Assembly (NCBI GenBank): GCA_012961055.1
Contig: DUAA01000265.1
Span: 1-10,806, forward strand
Length of the DNA stretch: 10,806 nt
DNA from: Nitrospinaceae bacterium
GTDB lineage: Bacteria; Nitrospinota; Nitrospinia; Nitrospinales; VA-1
Direction of reading: 5' to 3'
This document shows, in pieces, positions 1 to 10,336 of the stretch. The notes beneath the pieces were generated by a model that searched no databases, was not told where the DNA came from, and saw nothing but the letters and a program-made list of their open reading frames with translations. Both the position numbers and the translations under genes were made by a program. Every line of letters begins with the position of its first letter. The stretch's first letter is position 1.

Positions 1-953
1 CAAAAACTGCACGAAAGCACTTTATAAACCGTTTCGTGGTTTTCGCCATAGGCGCCATTTCGCGCAGGATCTGTGGGGCCGAAAATTGAAACCGTGGGAA
101 TGCCTAATGCCGCCGCCAAGTGAAGCGGACCTGAATCACAGCTTACCAGCAGTGCCATCCTTTTGTACAGGGCAATAGATTCTAAAATTGTAGTGGGGGG
201 TGCGATCCAGCTTTTTTGTTTCATGGTGTTGGAGATTTGCTGTACCTTCGATTCTTCTCCCGGTCCCCAGGTTAGTAATATGGAGTACCCCAACTCTGCG
301 GAAATGCGATCGGCCAAATTGGCGAAGCGGTCCAACTCCCATTGTTTAGTTGCGAATCCCGCGCCTGGATTAATTCCGATAACGGGACGTTCGGCTAGAC
401 CTGAGTTTGTGTTAAAAAAATGTGCGCTTTTTTCATCTATTTCTTCAGGAATGGGCAGGGGGAAATGTTTTGTTGCTTTAATTTCACCCAAAGCTGTTTG
501 CAATAAAGTTAGGTACATATCGACTACGTGGAGTCCCCCAGCGATGTAGGGAGTTTTTTGGTTGGTGAACAGAGCGCTAATTTTTTCTTTGCAGTTTTTG
601 GAATGAAACCCTGTTCGGTTTGGAGCCCCGCTCAACCTAGCGATGATGCCACTTTTGATAAGGCCGTGCAGATCGAGCGTTAGATCAAAATTATGCTGAC
701 GCATGATTTTGATAGTGTCCCGAATTTCTCTGAGCGATTGACTGTTCCAATTTTTGCGCCACACTTTAGTACGAAGTGGAATGATTTCATCGATATCGGG
801 GTTGTCGAGCAACAAATCCTGAAATCGTTCTTCTACCATCCAAACGATATGTGAACCGGGCAGAGACTTTCTAAGGGTTGCGGCAACAGGAAGAGAATGA
901 ACGATATCCCCCAAAGCGCTGAACTTTAGAATTAGTATTTTGGATATACTCAT
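1..953 (-). CDS. GT9 heptosyltransferase-like LPS glycosyltransferase, 3' end cut by window edge
   Basis: Reading the minus strand from ATG at 953-951 gives 317 codons with no stop before the window edge, so the C-terminus is missing. The N-terminus ILILKFSALGDIVHSLP (residues 6-22) is the glycosyltransferase family 9 signature. D16 sits where the catalytic Asp of WaaC (TSSMGDVLHTLP) lies. A central NPGAGFATKQW and a late SCDSGPLHLAAALGIP followed by FGPTDPARNGAYG match the nucleotide-sugar-binding C-terminal Rossmann domain; GPTDP..xGxYG is especially WaaC-like. Known GT9 members add ADP-heptose to the Kdo or inner core of lipopolysaccharide at the cytoplasmic face of the inner membrane. The start lies 17 bp after the stop of the PAP2 gene, so the two probably share a transcript. 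The ribosome site is weak. Family is confident; heptosyltransferase I rather than II or another GT9 sugar is less so. Confidence 0.88.
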   Translation of the reverse strand, partial: MSISKILILKFSALGDIVHSLPVAATLRKSLPGSHIVWMVEERFQDLLLDNPDIDEIIPLRTKVWRKNWNSQSLREIRDTIKIMRQHNFDLTLDLHGLIKSGIIARLSGAPNRTGFHSKNCKEKISALFTNQKTPYIAGGLHVVDMYLTLLQTALGEIKATKHFPLPIPEEIDEKSAHFFNTNSGLAERPVIGINPGAGFATKQWELDRFANLADRISAELGYSILLTWGPGEESKVQQISNTMKQKSWIAPPTTILESIALYKRMALLVSCDSGPLHLAAALGIPTVSIFGPTDPARNGAYGENHETVYKVLSCSF

Positions 954-970
954 GGGGTTATGGGGCCCCG

Positions 971-1513
971 TCAGGATTTGATGAGTTTTAAAATTCGGAC
1001 ATACATGTGACGATAACACAGGTAGCCTACCAGACTTCCGTATATTGCTCCGCCTAAAACATCAAACGGATAGTGCACCTTCAGGTACACTCTTGAATAA
1101 CAGACCAGCAGAGCCAAGCCTATAGCCAGGAGTGTGGTATTGCGAAAGCAAAGGCTTATGAGAGTCGCTGCGGCGAAAGTATTGCTGGCATGATTTGAGG
1201 GAAAAGAAAAACTGTTCGAGCATCTAAAAGTCATTTCAAGATCTGGCAAGACATGACATGGCCTGAGGCGAGCGATCCCCTCTTTAAGAATATAATGGCT
1301 GCTTGCATCACTCAGGGCGACAGTTATCCCAACGGTCAAAAGGAAGGCCAAACCATTGAGTCGGTAAACAGCAAGGATAGCCACCAGGCAAGCAATGCCT
1401 AAATAGTAAAAATTGTTTTTCATGGTGATGAACGCCATGAATGCATACATTATTGGGGATTGAAAATGCTCGTTGATCCAGTAAAATAGCAAAACGTCGA
1501 GATCGTGAAGAAT
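971..1513 (-). CDS. PAP2-family membrane phosphatase (lipid phosphatase-like), probable ATT start
   Basis: This is a small PAP2 (type 2 phosphatidic acid phosphatase) membrane protein. With the ATT start (180 residues), all three catalytic motifs are visible: KEGIARLRP (K77 to P85, KX6RP), PSNH (105-108, a variant of PSGH), and SRVYLKVHYPFD (S140, R141, H147, D151, SRX5HX3D). Hydrophobic helices fill the spaces between them. Relatives dephosphorylate undecaprenyl diphosphate, phosphatidylglycerophosphate or lipid A; the substrate cannot be read here. The earliest conventional start is TTG at 1492-1490, which has no ribosome site and cuts the usual N-terminus. An ATT at 1513-1511 has AAGGA seven bases upstream and yields (M)LHDLDVLLFYWIN, the typical PAP2 opening. 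An in-frame TAA at 1558-1556 bounds the frame. It is the first gene of an operon with the GT9 gene. Confidence 0.85.
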   Translation of the reverse strand: MLHDLDVLLFYWINEHFQSPIMYAFMAFITMKNNFYYLGIACLVAILAVYRLNGLAFLLTVGITVALSDASSHYILKEGIARLRPCHVLPDLEMTFRCSNSFSFPSNHASNTFAAATLISLCFRNTTLLAIGLALLVCYSRVYLKVHYPFDVLGGAIYGSLVGYLCYRHMYVRILKLIKS

Positions 1514-1520
1514 GGGGTAT

Positions 1521-1525
1521 TCCTT
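1521..1525 (-). promoter_or_regulatory. Shine-Dalgarno AAGGA that favours an ATT start for the PAP2 gene
   Basis: On the minus strand AAGGA is followed by seven bases (ATACCCC) and then ATT at 1513-1511. No comparable purine run precedes the TTG at 1492-1490. The site lies downstream of the predicted transcription start near 1546. Confidence 0.5.
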
Positions 1526-1552
1526 ATCTGCGGGAGTTGAAATTATGTGGAA

Positions 1553-1581
1553 ATTTTATGGGGTTTGATCGTTTGAGTCAA
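1553..1581 (-). promoter_or_regulatory. Sigma-70 promoter of the PAP2-GT9 operon
   Basis: On the minus strand TTGACT (1581-1576) and TAAAAT (1558-1553) are separated by exactly 17 bases, and each matches the consensus at five of six positions. The predicted start near 1546 gives a leader of about 33 bases to the proposed ATT start, long enough to include the AAGGA site. Confidence 0.6.
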
Positions 1582-1584
1582 ACG
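1570..1584. promoter_or_regulatory. Palindrome CGTTTGA-g-TCAAACG, candidate operator
   Basis: A perfect 7-bp inverted repeat with a single central base lies in the 149-bp divergent spacer between the PAP2 gene and the TIGR04282 gene. It covers the -35 box of the minus-strand promoter, the position expected of a repressor operator. It has no loop suited to an RNA hairpin. No regulator gene is nearby, so the role is inferred from geometry only. Confidence 0.35.
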
Positions 1585-1662
1585 TTTTATCGGCCCTATT
1601 TTTTGGGATTAGCAGGACAAGCCTTTTTCCTAGTTACTTGCGTTATCTTTTTTCGGGAGTAG

Positions 1663-2349
1663 ATGATAGTGAGAACGCATGATAGCGCGGTGATCTTGTT
1701 TGCCCGGGACCCCGTTCTTGGGAAGGTGAAGACCCGGCTTTTCCCTTTTTTAAGTGAAGAAACAATCCTCCAGCTTTATACCTGTTTTCTTCATGACAGT
1801 CTTGATAAGATTCGGCAGGTGAAAAACGCGGACTTATTTGTCGGTGTAGCTCCCTCGAACCAGTCCGGATTCTTTACCGCAATACAGGATGCTGGTATGC
1901 GCCTGTTTGCACAGGAAGGAAAGGACCTAGGCGATAAAATGCGCCGGGCCATTCATGACCGGTTTGTGGAAGGGTATAAGAGGGCGGTTATCATTGGTTC
2001 GGACAGTCCTTCACTGCCCGTTTCTTATATTGAGCAGGCCCTTAGTTCCGATAAAGATATGGTATTGGGTCCTAGCACAGATGGCGGTTACTACCTGATT
2101 GGAATGCGGGAGAAAGTGGTCGAGATTTTTGATGGGGTGGCCTGGGGCACGGAGAGGGTTTTGGCGGAAACGTATGAACGCCTGGTGAAGAATGGGGCAG
2201 CACTGGAAACTTTGCCCGTTTGGTACGATATTGACAGCCCTGAAGACTTAAAGTTCTTCCAAACCCATTTGCAACTCATTGAGCAGTCAGGACTAGGGAA
2301 AGTGGGAGAGACAGGAAAATTTCTAAATAAAATTTTAAGGAACCGCTAA
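1663..2349 (+). CDS. TIGR04282/DUF2064 glycosyltransferase-like protein (CofC-like fold)
   Basis: The 228-residue soluble protein has the hallmarks of the TIGR04282 (DUF2064) family, a GT-A/nucleotidyltransferase-like fold. These are FARDPVLGKVKTRL (residues 13-26), GSDSPSLP (112-119), LGPSTDGGYYLIG (135-147), WGTERVLAET (161-170) and YDIDSPEDL (188-196). The K-x-K-T-R-L and DGGYYLIG segments resemble nucleotide-binding parts of CofC/MobA-type transferases. Family members are variously named rSAM/selenodomain-associated transferase 1 or arsenosugar biosynthesis glycosyltransferase, and the substrate is unproven in most genomes. None of the radical-SAM partners usually cited lies in this window. 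GGGAG (1655-1659) is only three bases before ATG 1663, so GTG at 1669 (nine bases away) is a reasonable alternative start. It lies close upstream of hisD on the same strand and is probably co-transcribed. Confidence 0.85.
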   Translation: MIVRTHDSAVILFARDPVLGKVKTRLFPFLSEETILQLYTCFLHDSLDKIRQVKNADLFVGVAPSNQSGFFTAIQDAGMRLFAQEGKDLGDKMRRAIHDRFVEGYKRAVIIGSDSPSLPVSYIEQALSSDKDMVLGPSTDGGYYLIGMREKVVEIFDGVAWGTERVLAETYERLVKNGAALETLPVWYDIDSPEDLKFFQTHLQLIEQSGLGKVGETGKFLNKILRNR

Positions 2350-2399
2350 AATAGACTGGGATCATGAGCATCCCTTTAATTGAATTGAATGGAAACCAT

Positions 2400-3701
2400 A
2401 TGAAGCTTTGTAAATATACAGATTCGGATTATCAAGCGGTGATTGAGGCGTTGGAGAATCGTTCCAACATGGATTTATTTGCCCATGATGAAACCGTCCG
2501 CAAGATTTTACAGGATGTGAAAGATAGAGGCGATTTAGCAGTGTTGGAGTACACGCACCGTTTTGACCGCTACAATCTTACTCTGGAGGAAATGCGGGTT
2601 ACTGCTGAAGAAATTAATCGTGCTTATGAGGACGTTAGCGAAAAAGAACTTTCGGCGCTCAAGGCAGCAGAAGAACGCATTCGTAAATTTCACGAGCGCC
2701 AGAAGCAGGAGTCTTGGCGTTACCAGGAGGAGGGAATCACTTTAGGGCAGGTGGTAAGGCCGCTTGCTACAGCAGGAATCTATGTTCCTGGTGGTAAGGC
2801 ATCCTATCCATCTTCGGTGTTGATGAATGCTGTTCCGGCTAAAGTGGCAGGGGTGGAGCGGATTGTCATGTGTTCGCCGTTTCCTGATGGCAAAACGCGA
2901 TCGCATGTTCTGGTTGCGGCTGATATAGCGGGGGTAACAGAAATCTATAAAATTGGTGGTGCGCAGGCTATCGGGGCAATGGCTTTTGGTACCCCCACCG
3001 TTCCGCGGGTAGATAAGATAGTTGGTCCGGGCAATATCTATGTGGCATTAGCGAAGCGGCTCGTGTTTGGGATTGTCGGTATTGATATGATAGCAGGACC
3101 CAGTGAAATACTGATTGTGGCCGATCACAGTGCCAACCCGGCATACGTTGCGGCGGATTTGCTGTCTCAGGCTGAGCACGATGAAGAGGCGGTCCCGATT
3201 CTGGTGACTCCGGAGGAAGGTCTGGCTCGAGAGGTGATGGACGAATTGGAAAAACAGAAAAACAATCTGGGCCGCCGCTCTATAATAGAAGCTTCTTTAG
3301 ACACGCAATGTCGATTGCTGGTAACAGAATCCCTTGAAGCGGCGGTGGATCTGGCTAACAGGCTGGCCCCAGAGCACCTGGAGTTGGCTCTGGAAGATCC
3401 TGAATTTTGGGTTGAAAAAGTTCAAAATGCGGGTGCTATTTTCCTAGGTCATTTTACGCCGGAGGCGCTAGGCGATTATCTGGCAGGCCCAAATCATGTG
3501 TTACCAACAAGCGGCACGGCGCGGTTTTCGTCCCCGCTGGGAGTGTATGATTTTATCAAGCGAACTAGTTTGATTTCCTATTCTCAACCGGCATTAGAAA
3601 AATGCAGCAAAACTGTAACATTGTTGGCCGAAATGGAAGGTTTGGGAGCACATGCGAACTCAGTTAAACTACGGACTACCGGGACGGAAAATAAATCCTG
3701 A
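2400..3701 (+). CDS. hisD: Histidinol dehydrogenase
   Basis: HisD oxidises L-histidinol to L-histidine in two NAD-dependent steps, the last reactions of histidine synthesis, in the cytoplasm as a Zn homodimer. Counting from the ATG at 2364, the residues corresponding to E. coli Q259, H262, E326, H327, D360, H367 and H419 are Q269 and H272 (in LLSQAEHDEEA), E337 and H338 (APEHLELA), D371 (LGDYLAGPNHVLPTSG), H378 and H430 (GLGAHANSV). GPGNIYV and IAGPSEILI are also typical. I chose ATG 2400 because MKLCKYTDSDYQ is the usual HisD opening, it has GGA six bases upstream, and 433 residues fits E. coli's 434. The in-frame ATG at 2364 would add 12 unconserved residues with a poorly spaced ribosome site. 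No other his gene is visible in this window. Confidence 0.96.
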   Translation: MKLCKYTDSDYQAVIEALENRSNMDLFAHDETVRKILQDVKDRGDLAVLEYTHRFDRYNLTLEEMRVTAEEINRAYEDVSEKELSALKAAEERIRKFHERQKQESWRYQEEGITLGQVVRPLATAGIYVPGGKASYPSSVLMNAVPAKVAGVERIVMCSPFPDGKTRSHVLVAADIAGVTEIYKIGGAQAIGAMAFGTPTVPRVDKIVGPGNIYVALAKRLVFGIVGIDMIAGPSEILIVADHSANPAYVAADLLSQAEHDEEAVPILVTPEEGLAREVMDELEKQKNNLGRRSIIEASLDTQCRLLVTESLEAAVDLANRLAPEHLELALEDPEFWVEKVQNAGAIFLGHFTPEALGDYLAGPNHVLPTSGTARFSSPLGVYDFIKRTSLISYSQPALEKCSKTVTLLAEMEGLGAHANSVKLRTTGTENKS

Positions 3702-3719
3702 AAACATTATATTTTCAGG
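3697..3719 (+). terminator. Weak hairpin overlapping the hisD stop
   Basis: CCTGAAAA (3697-3704), loop CATTATA, TTTTCAGG (3712-3719) forms a perfect 8-bp stem that includes the hisD TGA (3699-3701). The stem is AU-rich at the loop end and is not followed by a clear U-tract, so termination is likely partial. It could instead protect the 3' end of the message. Confidence 0.35.
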
Positions 3720-3740
3720 GTTCTGGGGTTCGATTTTGTC

Positions 3741-3769
3741 TTGACAGCCAAGGAAGGCTATGTTTTAAT
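3741..3769 (+). promoter_or_regulatory. Near-consensus sigma-70 promoter, distal to the oxidase operon
   Basis: TTGACA (3741-3746, perfect) and TTTAAT (3764-3769, five of six) are separated by 17 bases. The start would be near 3776, giving an untranslated leader of about 265 bases before the oxidase gene. No open reading frame of note begins in that leader. Confidence 0.5.
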
Positions 3770-3945
3770 CACCATCATTTTGGGCATTTATGCGCCTGAA
3801 AACTGATGGCAGGGCAGGGCTTGCAAACCCATGTAAAACCAAGACTTATTGGGTTATGGGTGGAACAGACTACTAGATTTAGGTCGACTCAGGACGCGCT
3901 TTCTCGTTGTAAATGAGGCTGGGAGTTCTGAGGTTCGAATTTTTT

Positions 3946-3975
3946 TTGAAAGCTGGATTGACATATATAGATAAT
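3946..3975 (+). promoter_or_regulatory. Possible proximal promoter of the oxidase operon
   Basis: TTGAAA (3946-3951) and GATAAT (3970-3975) are separated by 18 bases, each one base off consensus. The region is AT-rich, so chance matches are easier. A second TTGACA at 3958-3963 has no good -10 at the right distance. The predicted start near 3982 would give a leader of about 60 bases. Confidence 0.35.
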
Positions 3976-4027
3976 AGGTACCTTTTAAAGTTTGTATTAA
4001 TAAGCTAAGGATCCTGATCAGATCCAA

Positions 4028-4035
4028 AAGGAGGT
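4028..4035 (+). promoter_or_regulatory. Strong ribosome binding site of the bd-like oxidase gene
   Basis: AAGGAGGT, a full match to the anti-Shine-Dalgarno sequence, lies six bases before ATG 4042. It is the strongest ribosome site in the window, consistent with an abundant product. It fixes the start at 4042. Confidence 0.85.
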
Positions 4036-4041
4036 TAAGAT

Positions 4042-6012
4042 ATGTTGGGGAATAATAAACATTGGATAAAGGCATTTTCACTTGGTTTGATAATGGCTAT
4101 GGCCATTTATTTTACTCCGGGTGTGACCAGCGATGCGATTGCCAAAGAGGCGTTTGCAGAACAGGTTTTTGCTGAGCAGGCATTTGCCAAAGAGGTTTTG
4201 GCTGAAGATGATGCCGCAGAAGGTGAAGGCGAGACTGAGGTTGAGTGGAGCCAGGACGTGTTCTATAAGGACTGGGAAGGTAATCCGCTGAAAGGACCTG
4301 TGAGTGGTTTTCCTGCTCCGGAACTTGGGCCGTCGGATTATAACAACTATGAGTTTGCTCCTAGTCGGATGCTTTTATGGGTTGCCAATCAGCAGCATCT
4401 TTATTTTGGTAGCTTCGTTCTTGCTGTTCCGATTTTCTGCATGCTCATCGAGTTTATCGGGATTCGTTCCAAGGAAGAAGATCCGATCATGTCTGCCAAG
4501 TATGACAGGTTGGCGCATGACCTGATGAAGGTCAGCTTGACTGCTTATTCCTGGACGGCGATTCTTGGTGGTATTCTCCTTTTTACATTCATCACCTTGT
4601 TCCCTGGTTTCTTTAAGTATATGGCAGGCATTTTCCGCCCGGTTATGCATGTGTACGCATTGATGTTCCTGGCTGAATCTGGCGTTCTGTATGTTTATTA
4701 CTATGGTTGGGATAGGATGAAGGACGATCCGTTCCTCAAGTGGATCCATTGTAGTCTTTCCGTGTTACTGAACCTCATTGGTACGGTTCTGATGTACCTG
4801 GCTAATTCATGGGCAACGTTCATGCAGGCTCCTGGTGGAATCGATTCTGAGGGTCGTTTTCTCGGGAATATTTGGCATGTTATTCATTCCACCCTATGGA
4901 ACCCTGTCGGAGTACACAGGATTCTTGGGAATATCGTATTTGGTGGTGGAATCGTAGGTGCTTACGCTGCGTATCATTACCTCACGGCGAAAAATGAAGA
5001 AGAGAAGGCGCATTACGATTGGGTATGTTATGTAGCCATGTTTATTTGTATTTTTGGTTTGATTCCGCTTCCTTTCGCTGGGTACTGGTTGATGAAGGAA
5101 GTGTATGCTTTCCGCCAACAAATGGGTATCACCCTGATGGGTGGCATCATGGCTTGGTTGTTCATCATTCAGGCTGTTATGATCGGGCTCCTGTTCTTCG
5201 CCGCCAACTCCTATCTGCATAATGGGATGTCGCGGGTCAAGGGTGCGCATCGGTATATGAAGTATTGTAAGTATATGGTGCTTCTCCTGATCTGTTGTTT
5301 CACCATGTGGATGACGCCGCATACTATTGTGATGACGCCGGCTGAATTGAAAGCGATGGGTGGTGCGCAGCATCCGGTTATCGGTCACTTCGGGGTAATG
5401 TCGGCTAAGAATACGGCGGTTAACCTAATGATTACGACAACCGTGCTCTGCTTTTTGCTTTATCAGAAGGCGAATAAAAGGATAACGGTGCCTTGGCAGA
5501 CGGTAGGTAACTGTTGGATTGCGGCAATTTTTGTTGGCGCTGCGGCCAATATCATCTTCCTAGGTGTTTATGGTTATTTCCTCCCTGCTAACCAGAGGGT
5601 TGGGCTTTCCGTTCCTCAGGTAACCACTACACTGACAACCTTGTTCGCTGGAACAGCGATCAATATCTCCATGTTTAAGGATTCTGAGTCTTACGGGGAG
5701 ATTCAATGGGGTAGTCAGTCAAAGGTTGGAACTTACGCTATATTTCTACTGGCGATTTCCTTTACCTGGTTGATGGGTCTAATGGGCTATATCCGTTCAG
5801 CCGTTCGTTTGTTCTGGCATGTAACGGAAGTGGTTCGCGATAACTCTGTTGATGCTTACACGCTCACCATTGGTGAAGCGGGTAAGATGCTTACCTTTAA
5901 CACTCTATTCGTGTGGACACAGTTTGTGGTTGTGTTCTGGGTAGGTAGCTTGACCGGTAAAAAAGTTGTAGAGAAGACTGCGGACGCTGTTCCGGTACCG
6001 GCTCAACAATAA
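4042..6012 (+). CDS. Cytochrome bd-like oxidase, CydA-like subunit lacking the quinol loop
   Basis: This 656-residue membrane protein aligns by eye with E. coli CydA at the heme sites. SRMLLWVANQQH gives R109 and H119 (CydA R9, H19). AES then GWDR gives E212 (CydA E107). VGVHRILGN gives H292 (CydA H186), and AFRQQMG gives M361 (CydA M393). So ligands for two or three b/d-type hemes are present. CydA has 207 residues between H186 and M393; here there are 69, so the Q-loop that binds quinol is absent. CydA E99 is replaced by V204, with H203 beside it. An N-terminal signal-like helix (11-34) and a repeat-bearing acidic region precede the first core helix. I estimate about 13 membrane helices, so the C-terminus extends beyond CydA. 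Inferred role: oxygen reduction with electrons from cytochrome c rather than quinol. It is the first gene of the four-gene operon. Confidence 0.85.
   Translation: MLGNNKHWIKAFSLGLIMAMAIYFTPGVTSDAIAKEAFAEQVFAEQAFAKEVLAEDDAAEGEGETEVEWSQDVFYKDWEGNPLKGPVSGFPAPELGPSDYNNYEFAPSRMLLWVANQQHLYFGSFVLAVPIFCMLIEFIGIRSKEEDPIMSAKYDRLAHDLMKVSLTAYSWTAILGGILLFTFITLFPGFFKYMAGIFRPVMHVYALMFLAESGVLYVYYYGWDRMKDDPFLKWIHCSLSVLLNLIGTVLMYLANSWATFMQAPGGIDSEGRFLGNIWHVIHSTLWNPVGVHRILGNIVFGGGIVGAYAAYHYLTAKNEEEKAHYDWVCYVAMFICIFGLIPLPFAGYWLMKEVYAFRQQMGITLMGGIMAWLFIIQAVMIGLLFFAANSYLHNGMSRVKGAHRYMKYCKYMVLLLICCFTMWMTPHTIVMTPAELKAMGGAQHPVIGHFGVMSAKNTAVNLMITTTVLCFLLYQKANKRITVPWQTVGNCWIAAIFVGAAANIIFLGVYGYFLPANQRVGLSVPQVTTTLTTLFAGTAINISMFKDSESYGEIQWGSQSKVGTYAIFLLAISFTWLMGLMGYIRSAVRLFWHVTEVVRDNSVDAYTLTIGEAGKMLTFNTLFVWTQFVVVFWVGSLTGKKVVEKTADAVPVPAQQ
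4150..4209 (+). repeat. Degenerate 15-bp repeat encoding AFAEQ-type pentapeptides
   Basis: Residues 37-56 of the oxidase read AFAEQ VFAEQ AFAKE VLAED, four imperfect copies of a five-residue unit. The repeat follows the predicted signal sequence and precedes an acidic stretch. The codons differ between copies, so the protein pattern is better kept than the DNA. A/E-rich repeats here suggest a helical extracytoplasmic spacer. Confidence 0.7.
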
Positions 6013-6030
6013 TAAACTGTTAACTTGTTT

Positions 6031-6059
6031 GCGGGGTTCCAGATGTTTTGGAGCCCCGC
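6031..6059 (+). promoter_or_regulatory. GC-rich hairpin between the oxidase and the first cytochrome gene
   Basis: GCGGGGTTCC (6031-6040), a nine-base loop, then GGAGCCCCGC (6050-6059) forms a 10-bp stem with one G-U pair. No U-tract follows (CCCAATTTAATC), so it is not a full terminator. It may lower downstream expression, or protect the oxidase mRNA 3' end after processing so that the core subunit is made in excess. Confidence 0.6.
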
Positions 6060-6095
6060 CCCAATTTAATCTGAGGGCATAGGGAGAGAGGGAAA

Positions 6096-7463
6096 ATGTT
6101 ACCAGAGCAGCATGATATTTTATTTTCATTTATAGCCATCGTTTTTGCCGTTTTCGGGGTTTTTGTTTTCGGCAGTGTGGTGCAAAATTGTAGGGAGAGA
6201 GAAAGCCTGAACGGCAAGAAGTGGGGTGCTATTTTTGGTGTCTTCGCTATTGCTTGTTTCTTGTTTACGGTTCATATGTTTAGCCTGGTCCAGGCTGATC
6301 AATTGGCATTTTTCTTTTCAACATATTTATGGCTTATAGTAGTAATGCTAATCACTTGGGGAATTTTCTTAAAAAGTTCCGGTGTGGAAAGTCAGTCCCC
6401 TCCCATTATTAGAGGATTTTTCTTCTGGACGACAGTTTCGCTTCTGCTGGCAGGTTACACGAACTGGTTGCCGCAGCAACGCAGTGACCCACCACCTAAA
6501 GAAGCAGCGATAGTGGGTGATGTTACGATGGAAGAGTTTGCGGAAATGGGTCGTGTCATAATTTTTGGTGCTAAGCAGGTTGCGGGTCAGAAATCAATCG
6601 GTAAAGGCCAGTGTCCTCTGTGTCACACCTTTGATCCTGGCGATCATATGGGCCGTTGTCCGAACCTGTTCGGAGTTGAAAAAAGAAGTCATGATCGCAT
6701 AAAAGAGGATAGGTATGCATCAAGTCCTATGGCGGTGGGCGAAACAGAGCCGGCTTCAGGAATTGTTAAGGGTAAGTATGATGAGATACCAGAAGAGTAT
6801 CGGCGTCAAAATGGTCCTGATGAGTTCACAGGCGAAGATTATATTCGTGAGTCTCTGATGTGCCCAACCTGTTATGTGGTGGAAGGCTTCGGTAAAGATG
6901 GCGACACAAAAAGCCCGATGCCGGTTATTGTCAAACCGCCTATCAGTTTGAGCCGGGTTGAGGTCAATGCAGTTGTTGCATACCTTCAGTCAAAGGATAC
7001 GCCGGGTGAGTTTGCTACTGTAACTGTTCCGCTGCCTCAGGATGATGCGGGAAATACAGGTGGCGCGGTGGTTGAAGAAGATTCAGATGATGAGGATCGT
7101 CCTGTGTTTGTTACCGGTACTGAGGATATTCAGGCCATGATCAATACATTAGGTTGTCCGCTTTGTCACACTATTCCTGGTGTCGAAGGTGCTATGGGTG
7201 AGTTAGGTCCGAAGCTTCATGAAAAGACCAATGCTCCCATGCGTATCAAAGATCCAAATTACAAGGGCAAGGCCACGAATACAAGAGAATATGTTAGGGA
7301 GTCTATTTTGAACCCTGGCGCGTATGTGGTCTTTAATGAAGCAGAGGGGGAGTTGTTCCCAGATGGTTTAATGCCTACAACTTTTTCGCAGATGCTTTCA
7401 GTTGATGCTCTCGATAAGCTTGTGGATTTTATTAGTCAGACCGAAGCTCCGGCTGGCAGTTAA
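6096..7463 (+). CDS. Membrane-anchored diheme cytochrome c, four helices plus two c domains
   Basis: The 455-residue protein opens with four hydrophobic helices (about 8-30, 44-66, 71-93, 104-125). A proline-rich exit and two related cytochrome c domains follow. Heme sites are CPLCH at 173-177 and CPLCH at 354-358. Likely distal ligands are M275 (KSPMPV) and M426 (DGLMPT). An acidic linker (about 326-335) joins the domains. The domains look like an internal duplication: both end with YIRES or YVRES, a divergent stretch, YVV and the Met loop. At that place the first copy has CPTCY (256-260) where the second has NPGAY. A purine-rich GGGAGAGAGGG precedes ATG 6096. It lies 83 bp after the oxidase and 12 bp before the next gene. 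I infer an electron-transfer subunit feeding the oxidase from the periplasm; no close named family is recognised for the whole protein. Confidence 0.85.
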   Translation: MLPEQHDILFSFIAIVFAVFGVFVFGSVVQNCRERESLNGKKWGAIFGVFAIACFLFTVHMFSLVQADQLAFFFSTYLWLIVVMLITWGIFLKSSGVESQSPPIIRGFFFWTTVSLLLAGYTNWLPQQRSDPPPKEAAIVGDVTMEEFAEMGRVIIFGAKQVAGQKSIGKGQCPLCHTFDPGDHMGRCPNLFGVEKRSHDRIKEDRYASSPMAVGETEPASGIVKGKYDEIPEEYRRQNGPDEFTGEDYIRESLMCPTCYVVEGFGKDGDTKSPMPVIVKPPISLSRVEVNAVVAYLQSKDTPGEFATVTVPLPQDDAGNTGGAVVEEDSDDEDRPVFVTGTEDIQAMINTLGCPLCHTIPGVEGAMGELGPKLHEKTNAPMRIKDPNYKGKATNTREYVRESILNPGAYVVFNEAEGELFPDGLMPTTFSQMLSVDALDKLVDFISQTEAPAGS

Positions 7464-7475
7464 TAGGAGACAACA

Positions 7476-8444
7476 ATGAATAAGACGTTAGTAAGCTTTT
7501 TAGTTTTTGTTGTCGGCCTGGCGGTTTTTCATAACGCCATATTTCCTATCTTTACACCGAAGGAGGTCGGCTGGGTTTTAAATAGGTATGTTTACTTTTT
7601 GGTGTTTATAGCTTATCTAATCATTACACATTTAGTCCTTAGACTTAAGGCTCCAATCGCATTGACGGCTTTGTATGTCTGGTCTTTGGGTTTTTACTTT
7701 TATAAGTATGTTTTATTTCCGCCGATTCCTTGGACCCTGTTTATTACCTATATGGTGATGTGGTCAATTGGTACCTTTCTGTTCGTCAGTCAGGACCCTG
7801 AAACCTTTAGGGCGTTTAGGAAACCAATTGTCAAAACTATTGTCGGGGAATATAAGTTTGCGCAAATCATCGTGCTGATAGCAATGCCGCTTTTGGTTGG
7901 GTTTGCGACTTATAATGTTATTTATCCGTCCTACCAGGAGCCGGTTGAGTTAAGGACGGTGCATCCAGCGCCGCCTGCCACCACCAAGGTGCATGGTAAG
8001 ACGTATCCGCTGGAGTCAACCAATAACCCTTTCCGGATCGATGAGCAGGATAACTATAAGGACAGTTTTCCGTTTCTAGATGCGGACAAGCATGAGTACA
8101 TGAAGTATGTGACAGAGGGAGGAACAATCTTCTTTCAGAACTGTCATTACTGTCATGGTGATCAGTTGAATGGTTTGGGGATGTTCTCCCATGTGTTCAA
8201 CCCCACTCCGGCGAACTTTATCGATCCGGGTACAATTGCTATGCTCCAGGAAGCATTCCTTTTCTGGCGGGTAGCTAAAGGAGGACCGGGTCTTCCGAAC
8301 GAGTCGACTCCATGGTCCTCAGCAATGCCTCCTTGGGAAGAGCATTTGAAAACGGATGAAATGTGGAAGGTCATCCTTTTTGAATACTGGTACACGGGAT
8401 GGCATCCAAGAACATTCGGTACTGAAGGTTCTGTGGGTGAATAA
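7476..8444 (+). CDS. Membrane-anchored monoheme cytochrome c
   Basis: The 322-residue protein has about five hydrophobic helices (4-25, 36-57, 62-80, 86-104, 129-148). A proline-rich linker and one C-terminal class I-like cytochrome c domain follow. The heme site is CHYCH (223-227), with CHGDQLNGLG after it, and the probable distal ligand is M284 (SSAMPPWEEH). The closing ..EMWKVILFEYWYTG.. is the C-terminal helix of such domains. AGGAGA (7465-7470) lies five bases before ATG 7476, and the upstream stop is only 12 bp away, so translation may be coupled. The topology places the heme in the periplasm. Position and layout parallel the preceding gene, so I infer a second electron-entry or structural subunit of the oxidase complex. 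It is not CydB: that family has no c heme and about eight to nine helices. Confidence 0.85.
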   Translation: MNKTLVSFLVFVVGLAVFHNAIFPIFTPKEVGWVLNRYVYFLVFIAYLIITHLVLRLKAPIALTALYVWSLGFYFYKYVLFPPIPWTLFITYMVMWSIGTFLFVSQDPETFRAFRKPIVKTIVGEYKFAQIIVLIAMPLLVGFATYNVIYPSYQEPVELRTVHPAPPATTKVHGKTYPLESTNNPFRIDEQDNYKDSFPFLDADKHEYMKYVTEGGTIFFQNCHYCHGDQLNGLGMFSHVFNPTPANFIDPGTIAMLQEAFLFWRVAKGGPGLPNESTPWSSAMPPWEEHLKTDEMWKVILFEYWYTGWHPRTFGTEGSVGE

Positions 8445-8492
8445 CTTAAGTTGCATTTTCGGTTACTAAAACCTAAACATATGGGAATGATA

Positions 8493-10211
8493 ATGAATAA
8501 GAATAACAACTTTATCAAACGCCTAATCTTTTCTTTCTTGGCGGTGCTGATGATTGCGATTCCTTCTACGGTGATTGCCGCAGTTCCGGATCCAGTCAAG
8601 AAGGACCTGCTGGAGAAGGGCAAAAAGGTTTACTTTAAAAGGTGTGTCTGGTGTCATGGGGTTGAGGGGGGCGGAGATGGCCCATCTGCAGACCGCTTGT
8701 TCACCCGGCCTAGAAACTTCATCCAGGGTACTTTTAAGATTCGTACAACGGATTCTGGAGAGTTACCAATGGACGCGGATCTAATCACAACCGTTAAAAA
8801 TGGTCTCCAGGGTTCGGCGATGCCGGCTTGGGGAGAATTTTTATCAAATGATGAGATCCTCGCGGTGGTCCAATTTGTTAAGACTCTTGTGCAGGATAGG
8901 GATTTTAATGACATTGAAGATGAAGAAGTATTCGTTCAGGACTTTGGCACCAATCCTTGGGGGACAACAGGTCCTTACCATCTAGGTATTCCTCAGGCGG
9001 ATATTGACACGGGTAAAGAAATATTTACGAAAAATAAATGTTTTGAGTGTCATGGCGGCGAAGGCCGAGGTGACGGTAACCCGACAATGAAAGACGACTG
9101 GGGTTTCCCGATTGTTGCAGCCGATTGGCAGCAATGCTGGAATTTCCGTGGCGCACGTCGAGATCCATTCGATCCCTTCCATGTCGTTCGCACCATTTCT
9201 ACCGGTTTGAATGGCACGCCGATGCCTAACTTCAAGGATCAAATCAAAGTTGAAGATCGTTGGAAAATTGCTGCGTTCGTTAACTCACTTTGTCCGAGGA
9301 AGAATATTGATAGATTGACCAACAAGCCTATCCCGGATTTTCTGATTCAGTCTATCTATACTGAAGGAAAAGTATCTCCAAAGATAGATGATCCCAGTTG
9401 GGCGTCTCCAGACACCGATCACCGGATTGTTGCTCTTTCAGAAGAGACTGTGGACAACCCGAAGAAGCATTACATTGCTATGGCGGGTCAGATCACTCGG
9501 GGTAGAAGAAATTTCGATCCTAAAAGCGACAATCTCTGGGTTTCATCTCGATGGAGTGCGGAAGATCAGGCGGTGTACTATCTAGTTGAATACCATACTC
9601 GTTTTCTAACTGATGATCCCGAGTATCCTGATGCGGTAGCGATTCAGTGGCCGGCAAAACTTCAGGATCTATTTGGTGCAGAGAAGCCCTACTTTATCAT
9701 GGGAGACTCTAAAAAACCGGTTGATATCTGGAAGGCAAGTTTCACGCCTCAAGATTACAGTGCGACCGCTGCACCAAATGAAAAAGGTTACCAGTTAAAC
9801 ATGAGTGTGTCAGAAACAGTAGGCTATGGTTTTGATTCCCTTCAGGACAAGGAGTCAGAAGGTAAAGTGGAGATCGTAGACTCTATCTTTCATCAGGGCC
9901 GTGTAAAAATCATGTTTAAACGGAGTTTGGCTACCGATGGTGAATTTGATGTTCAAATTCCCACCGAGAAATTCATTCCTGTTGCATTCATGCAGTGGTC
10001 TGGACGGGATAAGGAAACGGATGAACATAATGCCATCTCAACATGGTATTACACTATTCTGAAACCTGCATTGCCGCAGTCTCTTTATTACATGCCTCCA
10101 ATCATAGCAGCTATATTTGTTGTTTTTCAGGGTTGGGTGGTATGGATGACGAAACGTACGCGTAAAATGTATTCCGAAGGAAAAGTTATACGTGACGAGA
10201 CTCCAAAATAG
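8493..10211 (+). CDS. Diheme cytochrome c fused to an ethylbenzene-dehydrogenase-gamma-like heme b domain (NxrC-like)
   Basis: From ATG 8493 the product has 572 residues. GGGA at 8483-8486 lies six bases upstream, and upstream in-frame starts (TTG 8451, ATG 8481/8487) give a poorer N-terminus. A signal sequence or anchor (7-30, ending TVIAA) is followed by two cytochrome c domains: CVWCH 51-55 with M110 (GSAMP), and CFECH 183-187 with M244 (TPMPN). Residues about 291-524 resemble the EB_dh heme-binding domain of DMSO-reductase-family gamma subunits. Its landmarks are YFIMGDSKKPVDIWKA (400-415), with M403 a possible heme b ligand, and PVAFMQWSGRD followed by AISTWYYTIL. A C-terminal helix (about 533-552) with a positive tail anchors it. 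Such gamma-like proteins carry electrons out of nitrite oxidoreductase-type enzymes. No alpha or beta subunit is nearby, so I infer an electron-relay subunit working with the oxidase. It is the last gene of the operon. Confidence 0.87.
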   Translation: MNKNNNFIKRLIFSFLAVLMIAIPSTVIAAVPDPVKKDLLEKGKKVYFKRCVWCHGVEGGGDGPSADRLFTRPRNFIQGTFKIRTTDSGELPMDADLITTVKNGLQGSAMPAWGEFLSNDEILAVVQFVKTLVQDRDFNDIEDEEVFVQDFGTNPWGTTGPYHLGIPQADIDTGKEIFTKNKCFECHGGEGRGDGNPTMKDDWGFPIVAADWQQCWNFRGARRDPFDPFHVVRTISTGLNGTPMPNFKDQIKVEDRWKIAAFVNSLCPRKNIDRLTNKPIPDFLIQSIYTEGKVSPKIDDPSWASPDTDHRIVALSEETVDNPKKHYIAMAGQITRGRRNFDPKSDNLWVSSRWSAEDQAVYYLVEYHTRFLTDDPEYPDAVAIQWPAKLQDLFGAEKPYFIMGDSKKPVDIWKASFTPQDYSATAAPNEKGYQLNMSVSETVGYGFDSLQDKESEGKVEIVDSIFHQGRVKIMFKRSLATDGEFDVQIPTEKFIPVAFMQWSGRDKETDEHNAISTWYYTILKPALPQSLYYMPPIIAAIFVVFQGWVVWMTKRTRKMYSEGKVIRDETPK

Positions 10212-10217
10212 GCGTCA

Positions 10218-10336
10218 CTAGTATTATAAGAAAAGCCCACCGATTATTCGGTGGGCTTTTTTTATGTCTTTTATTCCGCGTTTAAAGGATCGAAATAGAT
10301 ATCATAAAATGATACAGATACATCCTAGTATTATAA
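10218..10336. repeat. Pair of 12-bp direct repeats CTAGTATTATAA around the terminator
   Basis: CTAGTATTATAA occurs at 10218-10229 and again at 10325-10336, one on each side of the terminator and 107 bp apart. The second copy extends into a near-palindrome, CTAGTATTATAATATTAG. A separate hairpin TATCAT-AAA-ATGATA lies at 10300-10314. These are short AT-rich matches, and no mobile-element gene or target duplication is seen. Confidence 0.4.
10231..10263 (+). terminator. Strong intrinsic terminator of the oxidase operon
   Basis: GCCCACCGA (10235-10243), loop TTAT, TCGGTGGGC (10248-10256), then seven T. The flanking AAAA (10231-10234) extends pairing with the T-run. It lies 20 bp after the last stop. 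The A-run upstream means it could also work for minus-strand transcription arriving from rpoZ. Confidence 0.93.

Follow-up and report, generated by a model that had tools for sequence, protein, structure and literature searches.

The 10,806-base stretch of DNA analysed here (the window), which is the whole of one contig (C265) in a Nitrospinaceae MAG of 1.61 Mb and 305 contigs that is 74% complete, carries a copy of a gene cluster already described in nitrite oxidisers, and the sequences and a structure model suggest that this module probably encodes the electron-entry side and the bd-type core of a cytochrome c:O2 oxidoreductase. Canonical bd enzymes accept electrons from quinol only, and a bd-type oxidase fed by cytochrome c would, if real, break that rule. 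The OR-N family of the cytochrome bd O2 reductase superfamily was reportedly described by Murali et al. in 2021. Proteins of the kind encoded here have been assigned to OR-N (PMC10839748, PMC12342949), which PMC10839748 regards as putative cytochrome c oxidases; a 14-helix bd-like protein without a Q loop, accompanied by cytochromes c and an alternative NxrC, appears in PMC3578206, and the cluster and its synteny in PMC6606698 and PMC8026999. The original prediction of a cytochrome c-fed oxidase is thus supported as the most likely role, and its remark that the make-up of such a complex is poorly described is not, since both the cluster and the proposal of a cytochrome c oxidase are in print (PMC3578206, PMC6606698, PMC8026999, PMC10839748). 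What is new here is modest, namely the counts, a doubt over M361 as a haem ligand, substitutions at the haem b ligand positions of the alternative NxrC (alt-NxrC)-like protein and module genes in genomes without detectable NXR. The window is one more copy; the mapped residues and these last genomes facilitate tests of the published hypothesis.

The four open reading frames all lie on the plus strand between positions 4042 and 10,211, separated by 83, 12 and 6 bp. They encode a CydA-like protein of 656 aa, an OR-N1-like bd-type subunit with about 14 helices and no quinol loop (4042–6012); a membrane-anchored dihaem c-type cytochrome of 455 aa with three to four N-terminal hydrophobic helices and CxxCH at residues 173 and 354, examined also in an 18-row alignment (6096–7463); a membrane-anchored monohaem c-type cytochrome of 322 aa with four N-terminal hydrophobic helices and CxxCH at residue 223 (7476–8444); and an alt-NxrC-like protein (8481–10,211) made up, by its two CxxCH motifs and profile matches, of an N-terminal helix, a dihaem c part, an EB_dh/NxrC-like domain and a C-terminal helix. 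The start of this last gene is uncertain (ATG at 8481, 8487 or 8493, or the TTG at 8451 given in the list of reading frames), and the last gap becomes 36 bp if it begins at 8481. The label OR-N1 is given by resemblance and follows the naming in PMC10839748 and PMC12342949. A Shine-Dalgarno-like AGGAGGT, read from the sequence, precedes the CydA-like gene (4029–4035, plus strand), and an intrinsic terminator with a 19-pair stem, a loop of 4 and a T run closes the cluster (10,225–10,266, plus strand). The cluster had been called terminator-bounded, which is correct for the downstream side only, because no terminator of similar strength is listed upstream; terminator-like sites overall (6 found, 6.7 expected) and promoter-like sites (13 found, 13.1 expected) are at chance level.

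The CydA-like protein has the bd fold across the membrane part of its structure model (pLDDT 87), which was built from 103 sequences, that is, 102 remaining from 360 protein matches after a 560–690 aa length filter and an 80% identity filter, plus the window protein; an earlier model from 12 sequences was set aside at a pLDDT of 51.5. The only Pfam match at E up to 0.1 is Cyt_bd_oxida_I (PF01654), which covers just profile positions 2–239 of 418, and the COX1 domain (PF00115) was not found in this protein at the same limit; a published claim speaks of haem-copper residues. H119 and H292 align with H19 and H186 of Escherichia coli CydA, counterparts of which are present in 18 of 18 OR-N rows, and H119, E212 and H292 are invariant in all 103 rows of the alignment behind the model (A5). 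The core had been predicted to comprise H119, H292 and M361, and both histidines stand; M361 (Met in 100 of the 103 rows) is not established as a haem ligand, and M453 and H427, both kept in 103 of 103 rows and on the same side as M361 by helix count on the model, are better conserved candidates. The predicted loss of the quinol loop is borne out by a MAFFT alignment, in which all 18 OR-N rows have a gap opposite the E. coli quinol-site residue E257 and another residue in place of K252, and by the model, where helices 6 and 7 are only 27 residues apart. Some 14 helices can be read from the secondary structure of the model, in agreement with the 14 reported for the bd-like protein of N. gracilis (PMC3578206). 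In the MAFFT alignment Y205 takes the place of E. coli E99 and no counterpart of E445/GRQPW is seen, sequence alignment being not significant past helix 5; likewise, E. coli M393 and E445 cannot be placed by sequence, since hmmsearch and hhalign lose significance after helix 5 or 6. An oxygen site, if present, would therefore be built differently. Set beside E. coli CydAB, then, the window protein shares the CydA fold and the H19/H186 counterparts, but the quinol loop is missing, the C-terminal half has extra helices and genes for c-type cytochromes lie alongside, and no CydB match (PF02322) was found in the 74% complete host MAG.

The three membrane-anchored c-type cytochromes with five CxxCH sites are as foreseen, with two, one and two sites in the 455-aa, 322-aa and alt-NxrC-like proteins, respectively (residue shuffles yield on average no more than 0.003 per protein), and with Pfam Cytochrom_C matches in all three. 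C223, C226 and H227 of the 322-aa cytochrome are invariant in 17 rows, and the 455-aa protein also has CPTCY at residue 256, which departs from the standard haem c motif. By profile matches, the C-terminal domain of the alt-NxrC-like protein is related to NXR-C and to the gamma subunit of ethylbenzene dehydrogenase (EbDH). The domain profile matches NXR-C (7b04_C) at E 7.9e-18, and the protein matches 6h5l_B, a chain that carries only the name "conserved hypothetical cytochrome protein", at E 2.7e-65, with the dihaem part as the close region; EB_dh stays below its cut-off of 33.3 bits (22.5 bits in the last protein, 25.7 bits for the window domain) and is matched by 13 of 15 alt-NxrC-like family members at E 0.01. 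The haem b ligands of EbDH gamma are presumably Met and Lys. The window residues aligned with them are Q and H; the Met position holds Q or E in 15 of 15 rows, and Lys is kept at its position in 8 of the 15, all of them outside the six rows of the window and its closest relatives. The probable haem b domain of the original prediction thus finds support at the level of fold only, from the NXR-C and EbDH gamma matches, and the Met/Lys pair is not there.

Conservation of the module was followed in 82 loci, comprising the window, the host's second copy and the best 80 of 498 relatives encoded among 533 pattern matches in a scan of genome contigs, a set that is biased to close relatives in Nitrospinota and Nitrospirota records because only the best 80 were retained. 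Within that set the four genes do keep together, in fixed order on one strand, at 69 of the 82 loci, three of which (L032, L048, L055) have a CydA gene cut by the contig start. A further 11 end at a contig edge, and their genes keep the usual order up to that point (L062 also has a split 322-aa gene); L065 has all four genes with the second one split, and L059, perhaps a mis-join, is broken, with a shortened second gene followed by what is by eye a NuoH-like frame. Outside the host's order, where all nine genomes matching the CydA profile were inspected, the CydA, dihaem and monohaem genes are ordered in eight and rearranged in one (G001), and the alt-NxrC-like gene is found in four, the contig ending first in the other five. 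The 322-aa cytochrome is present in seven of 11 genomes tested and was not found in G067–G070, other-order genomes that likewise have no CydA-like match. The 38 best database matches of the CydA-like protein are 90–95% identical, the single one that carries an organism name being Nitrospinaceae bacterium P0018; a named Nitrospiraceae match (P0104) is 61% identical, and the named contigs nearest to the window are Nitrospina, which places the host in the Nitrospinaceae. Names such as Deltaproteobacteria, Rhodospirillales, Nitrospirota and Ca. Manganitrophaceae are found among more distant CydA relatives, and the CydA family thus extends beyond the nitrite oxidisers.

The published clusters are similar in content. 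The N. moscoviensis cluster of bd-like_3, two cytochromes c and alt_NxrC_2 has the same gene types, which are known from Nitrospinae, Nitrospirae and anammox bacteria too (PMC6606698, PMC8026999, PMC3578206), and an N. moscoviensis locus (L082), taken to be bd-like_3 because of the genes it contains and a CydA paralogue close by rather than through locus tags, has all four genes in the window order and a CydA-like protein 61% identical to that of the window. The cluster in PMC3578206 pairs one monohaem with one dihaem cytochrome c, as does the window, and that in PMC8026999 differs in pairing a dihaem with a trihaem cytochrome. The absent quinol site, the adjoining cytochromes c and the Nitrospinota host are all features of the OR-N family (PMC10839748), and TO_1 of Ca. 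Manganitrophaceae, likened here by description, is a proposed terminal oxidase in which a periplasmic cytochrome b subunit accompanies a bd-like protein (PMC9040806).

The oxidase repertoire of these organisms also bears on function. The CydA-like profile matches 72 of 77 Nitrospinota genomes and 63 of the 64 in the host's order, which I sorted by score and span into 57 with an OR-N1-type match and six with only a more distant type; the one host-order genome without a CydA-like match (G021) yet has the 322-aa gene. Haem-copper oxidases are scarce in the order, with full-length COX1 above 200 bits in only five of the 64 genomes (G004, G016, G019, G024, G029), weaker partial matches in others, two of which exceed the family cut-off (G021, G023), and no COX1 match in the 74% complete host MAG. 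This scarcity against the widespread OR-N1 (57/64), or some OR-N type (63/64), argues for an oxidase, as do the bd fold, the lost quinol site, the synteny and natural fusions of CydA with cytochrome c, and in N. moscoviensis the cluster ranked within the top 40 genes by transcription (PMC6606698). The fusions, proteins of more than 700 aa with CxxCH within the last 220 residues, account for 30 of the 120 matches listed for a related CydA (L106) and for none of the 240 listed for two closer queries, L106 being the most distant of the three, which counts against the argument; they are absent from the 103-row alignment because of its length filter. They suggest that the cytochrome and the CydA-like protein touch.

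The electron path, carrier order, haem types, oxygen chemistry and partner subunits that I infer would be as follows. A periplasmic cytochrome c, reduced by NXR in nitrite oxidisers, would reduce the haem c domains of the three cytochrome subunits (alt-NxrC-like, 322 aa and 455 aa), which would pass the electrons to a b-type haem at the periplasmic face of the CydA-like protein (H292 with M453, M361 or H427); from there they would reach an oxygen-reducing haem site that would include H119. The literature searched yielded no purified or solved complex and no activity data, which does not prove that such biochemistry is absent. The core probably works together with, and may need, a second CydA-like protein encoded elsewhere, the more distant OR-N2-like type of about 700–730 aa, whose gene adjoins one for a two-CxxCH protein in the three loci inspected. 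OR-N2-type matches occur in at least 52 of the 64 host-order genomes (at least 51 counted, plus the host, where a piece on contig C176 shares 83%, 87% and 70% identity with three relatives), and the two types have been proposed to form a CydAA' pair (PMC10839748, PMC12342949).

Such a pair could also be read as one in which OR-N2 reduces oxygen and the OR-N1 of the module just relays electrons, which is a doubtful though serious possibility. The co-occurrence and the pair hypothesis are compatible with it, E99 and, where alignable, E445 are not conserved in OR-N1, and PMC6606698 places the oxidase-type residues in the other paralogue (bd-like_2/Nide0901, that is, OR-N2); E99, however, is not conserved in three OR-N2 rows either, and the invariance of H119, E212 and H292 in all 103 rows argues against a mere relay. 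Less likely still is a cytochrome c:quinone oxidoreductase, which would use reverse electron transport to reduce quinone with nitrite-derived electrons from cytochrome c, in effect an alternative complex III working in the opposite direction. Reverse electron flow has been suggested for the bd-like_3-type cluster (PMC6606698), which counts against the oxidase reading, as does the presence of the cluster in anammox bacteria (PMC8026999, PMC3578206), organisms that PMC3578206 terms strictly anaerobic. Against the quinone reading, the canonical bd quinol site is gone, and an oxidase is favoured both by the fusions, seen in a related branch, and by how rare haem-copper oxidases are; the match of the structure model to alternative complex III subunits, which may be generic, is not counted as evidence for quinone binding.

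NXR itself can be traced only in part: at 1e-50 the host NxrA (contig C117, L016) matches 32 of the 77 genomes, of which 30 belong to the host's order, so that NXR goes missed in 34 of the 64 genomes of that order and absence of NxrA counts weakly. No NxrA candidate was found in two genomes with module genes, namely G001 (96% complete), where the genes are rearranged on L103, and G073 (86% complete), where a single CBS-like gene precedes alt-NxrC in the module on L100. In G071 the genes ahead of the module resemble, by eye, the last part of a NarGHJ-type operon, so other molybdoenzymes exist in some of these lineages. That the complex is a dedicated membrane anchor onto which alt-NxrC docks NXR, as suggested in PMC6606698 and PMC8026999 and in keeping with the NXR-C match (7b04_C), is improbable given TO_1, a bd-like complex in Manganitrophaceae without the Nitrospira nitrification genes (PMC9040806), and, weakly since both genomes are incomplete and NXR is so often missed, given G073 and G001.

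Returning to the cytochrome c-fed oxidase, one can tentatively, and with less confidence than for the function of the module by itself, join these observations into a wider reading, in which the module and OR-N2 would together be the sole terminal oxidase of most marine nitrite-oxidising Nitrospinia, with the oxygen site rebuilt (E99 lost; H427, H593, M453 and M581 invariant) and the whole independent of, and perhaps older than, NXR. Sister lineages would have recombined its parts into forms in which CydA carries a fused cytochrome c and Mrp-type antiporter subunits are included, possibly giving an ion-pumping bd oxidase.

Finally, the second copy of the module, on host contig C302, raised the question of a duplication in the host, which is not claimed here because a misbinned contig or transfer explains this copy equally well. 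In a tree of the four joined proteins (50 of the 82 loci taken, nine dropped for a missing gene, 41 used), the C302 copy groups with L033, L039, L040 and L048, away from the window.

Operons in which a CydA-like gene stands together with genes for antiporter proteins were found in two Nitrospinota MAGs, at 616-6732 on the + strand of locus L107 (MAG G073) and at 1867-10279 on the - strand of locus L108 (MAG G001), and in both the CydA-like protein carries a CxxCH haem c site at its C-terminus. Mrp/NuoM-type antiporter proteins (PF00361) are encoded once in the L107 operon and twice in the L108 operon, alongside a cytochrome like the 322-aa one of the window and an alt-NxrC-like protein. PMC9040806 describes a similar cluster with two MrpD-like subunits, TO_2, which according to that paper is confined within Nitrospirota to Manganitrophaceae and may be unique to them on a wider scale too. 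Among the papers that a literature search listed, none dealt with a CydA/antiporter operon of this type in Nitrospinota. Bin contamination is a possible source of the two operons.

The host MAG itself holds another four-gene module (L010, contig C302), which may lie on a foreign contig because its tree position is with a different Nitrospinaceae lineage. Within the window, the dihaem part of alt-NxrC (8595-9305) has a close match in chain B of PDB 6h5l, an entry for the hydrazine dehydrogenase of anammox bacteria. A GC-rich inverted repeat that lacks a T run, read from the sequence at 6031-6059 in the spacer separating the CydA-like gene from the gene after it, might have a role in setting subunit ratios.

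The host also encodes a further NxrC-type paralogue (L012 820-2838, contig C284), which combines an EB_dh domain with three CxxCH sites; a nearby 1670-aa frame looks multicopper-like by eye. Also by eye, the module in Nitrospinota genome G071 is preceded by genes resembling the last part of an operon of the NarG, NarH and NarJ type (L097 2-2499). Frames of ~310 aa in several Nitrospinota (for example G024:C1:816956-817327) weakly match the first third of COX1 (~30 bits).
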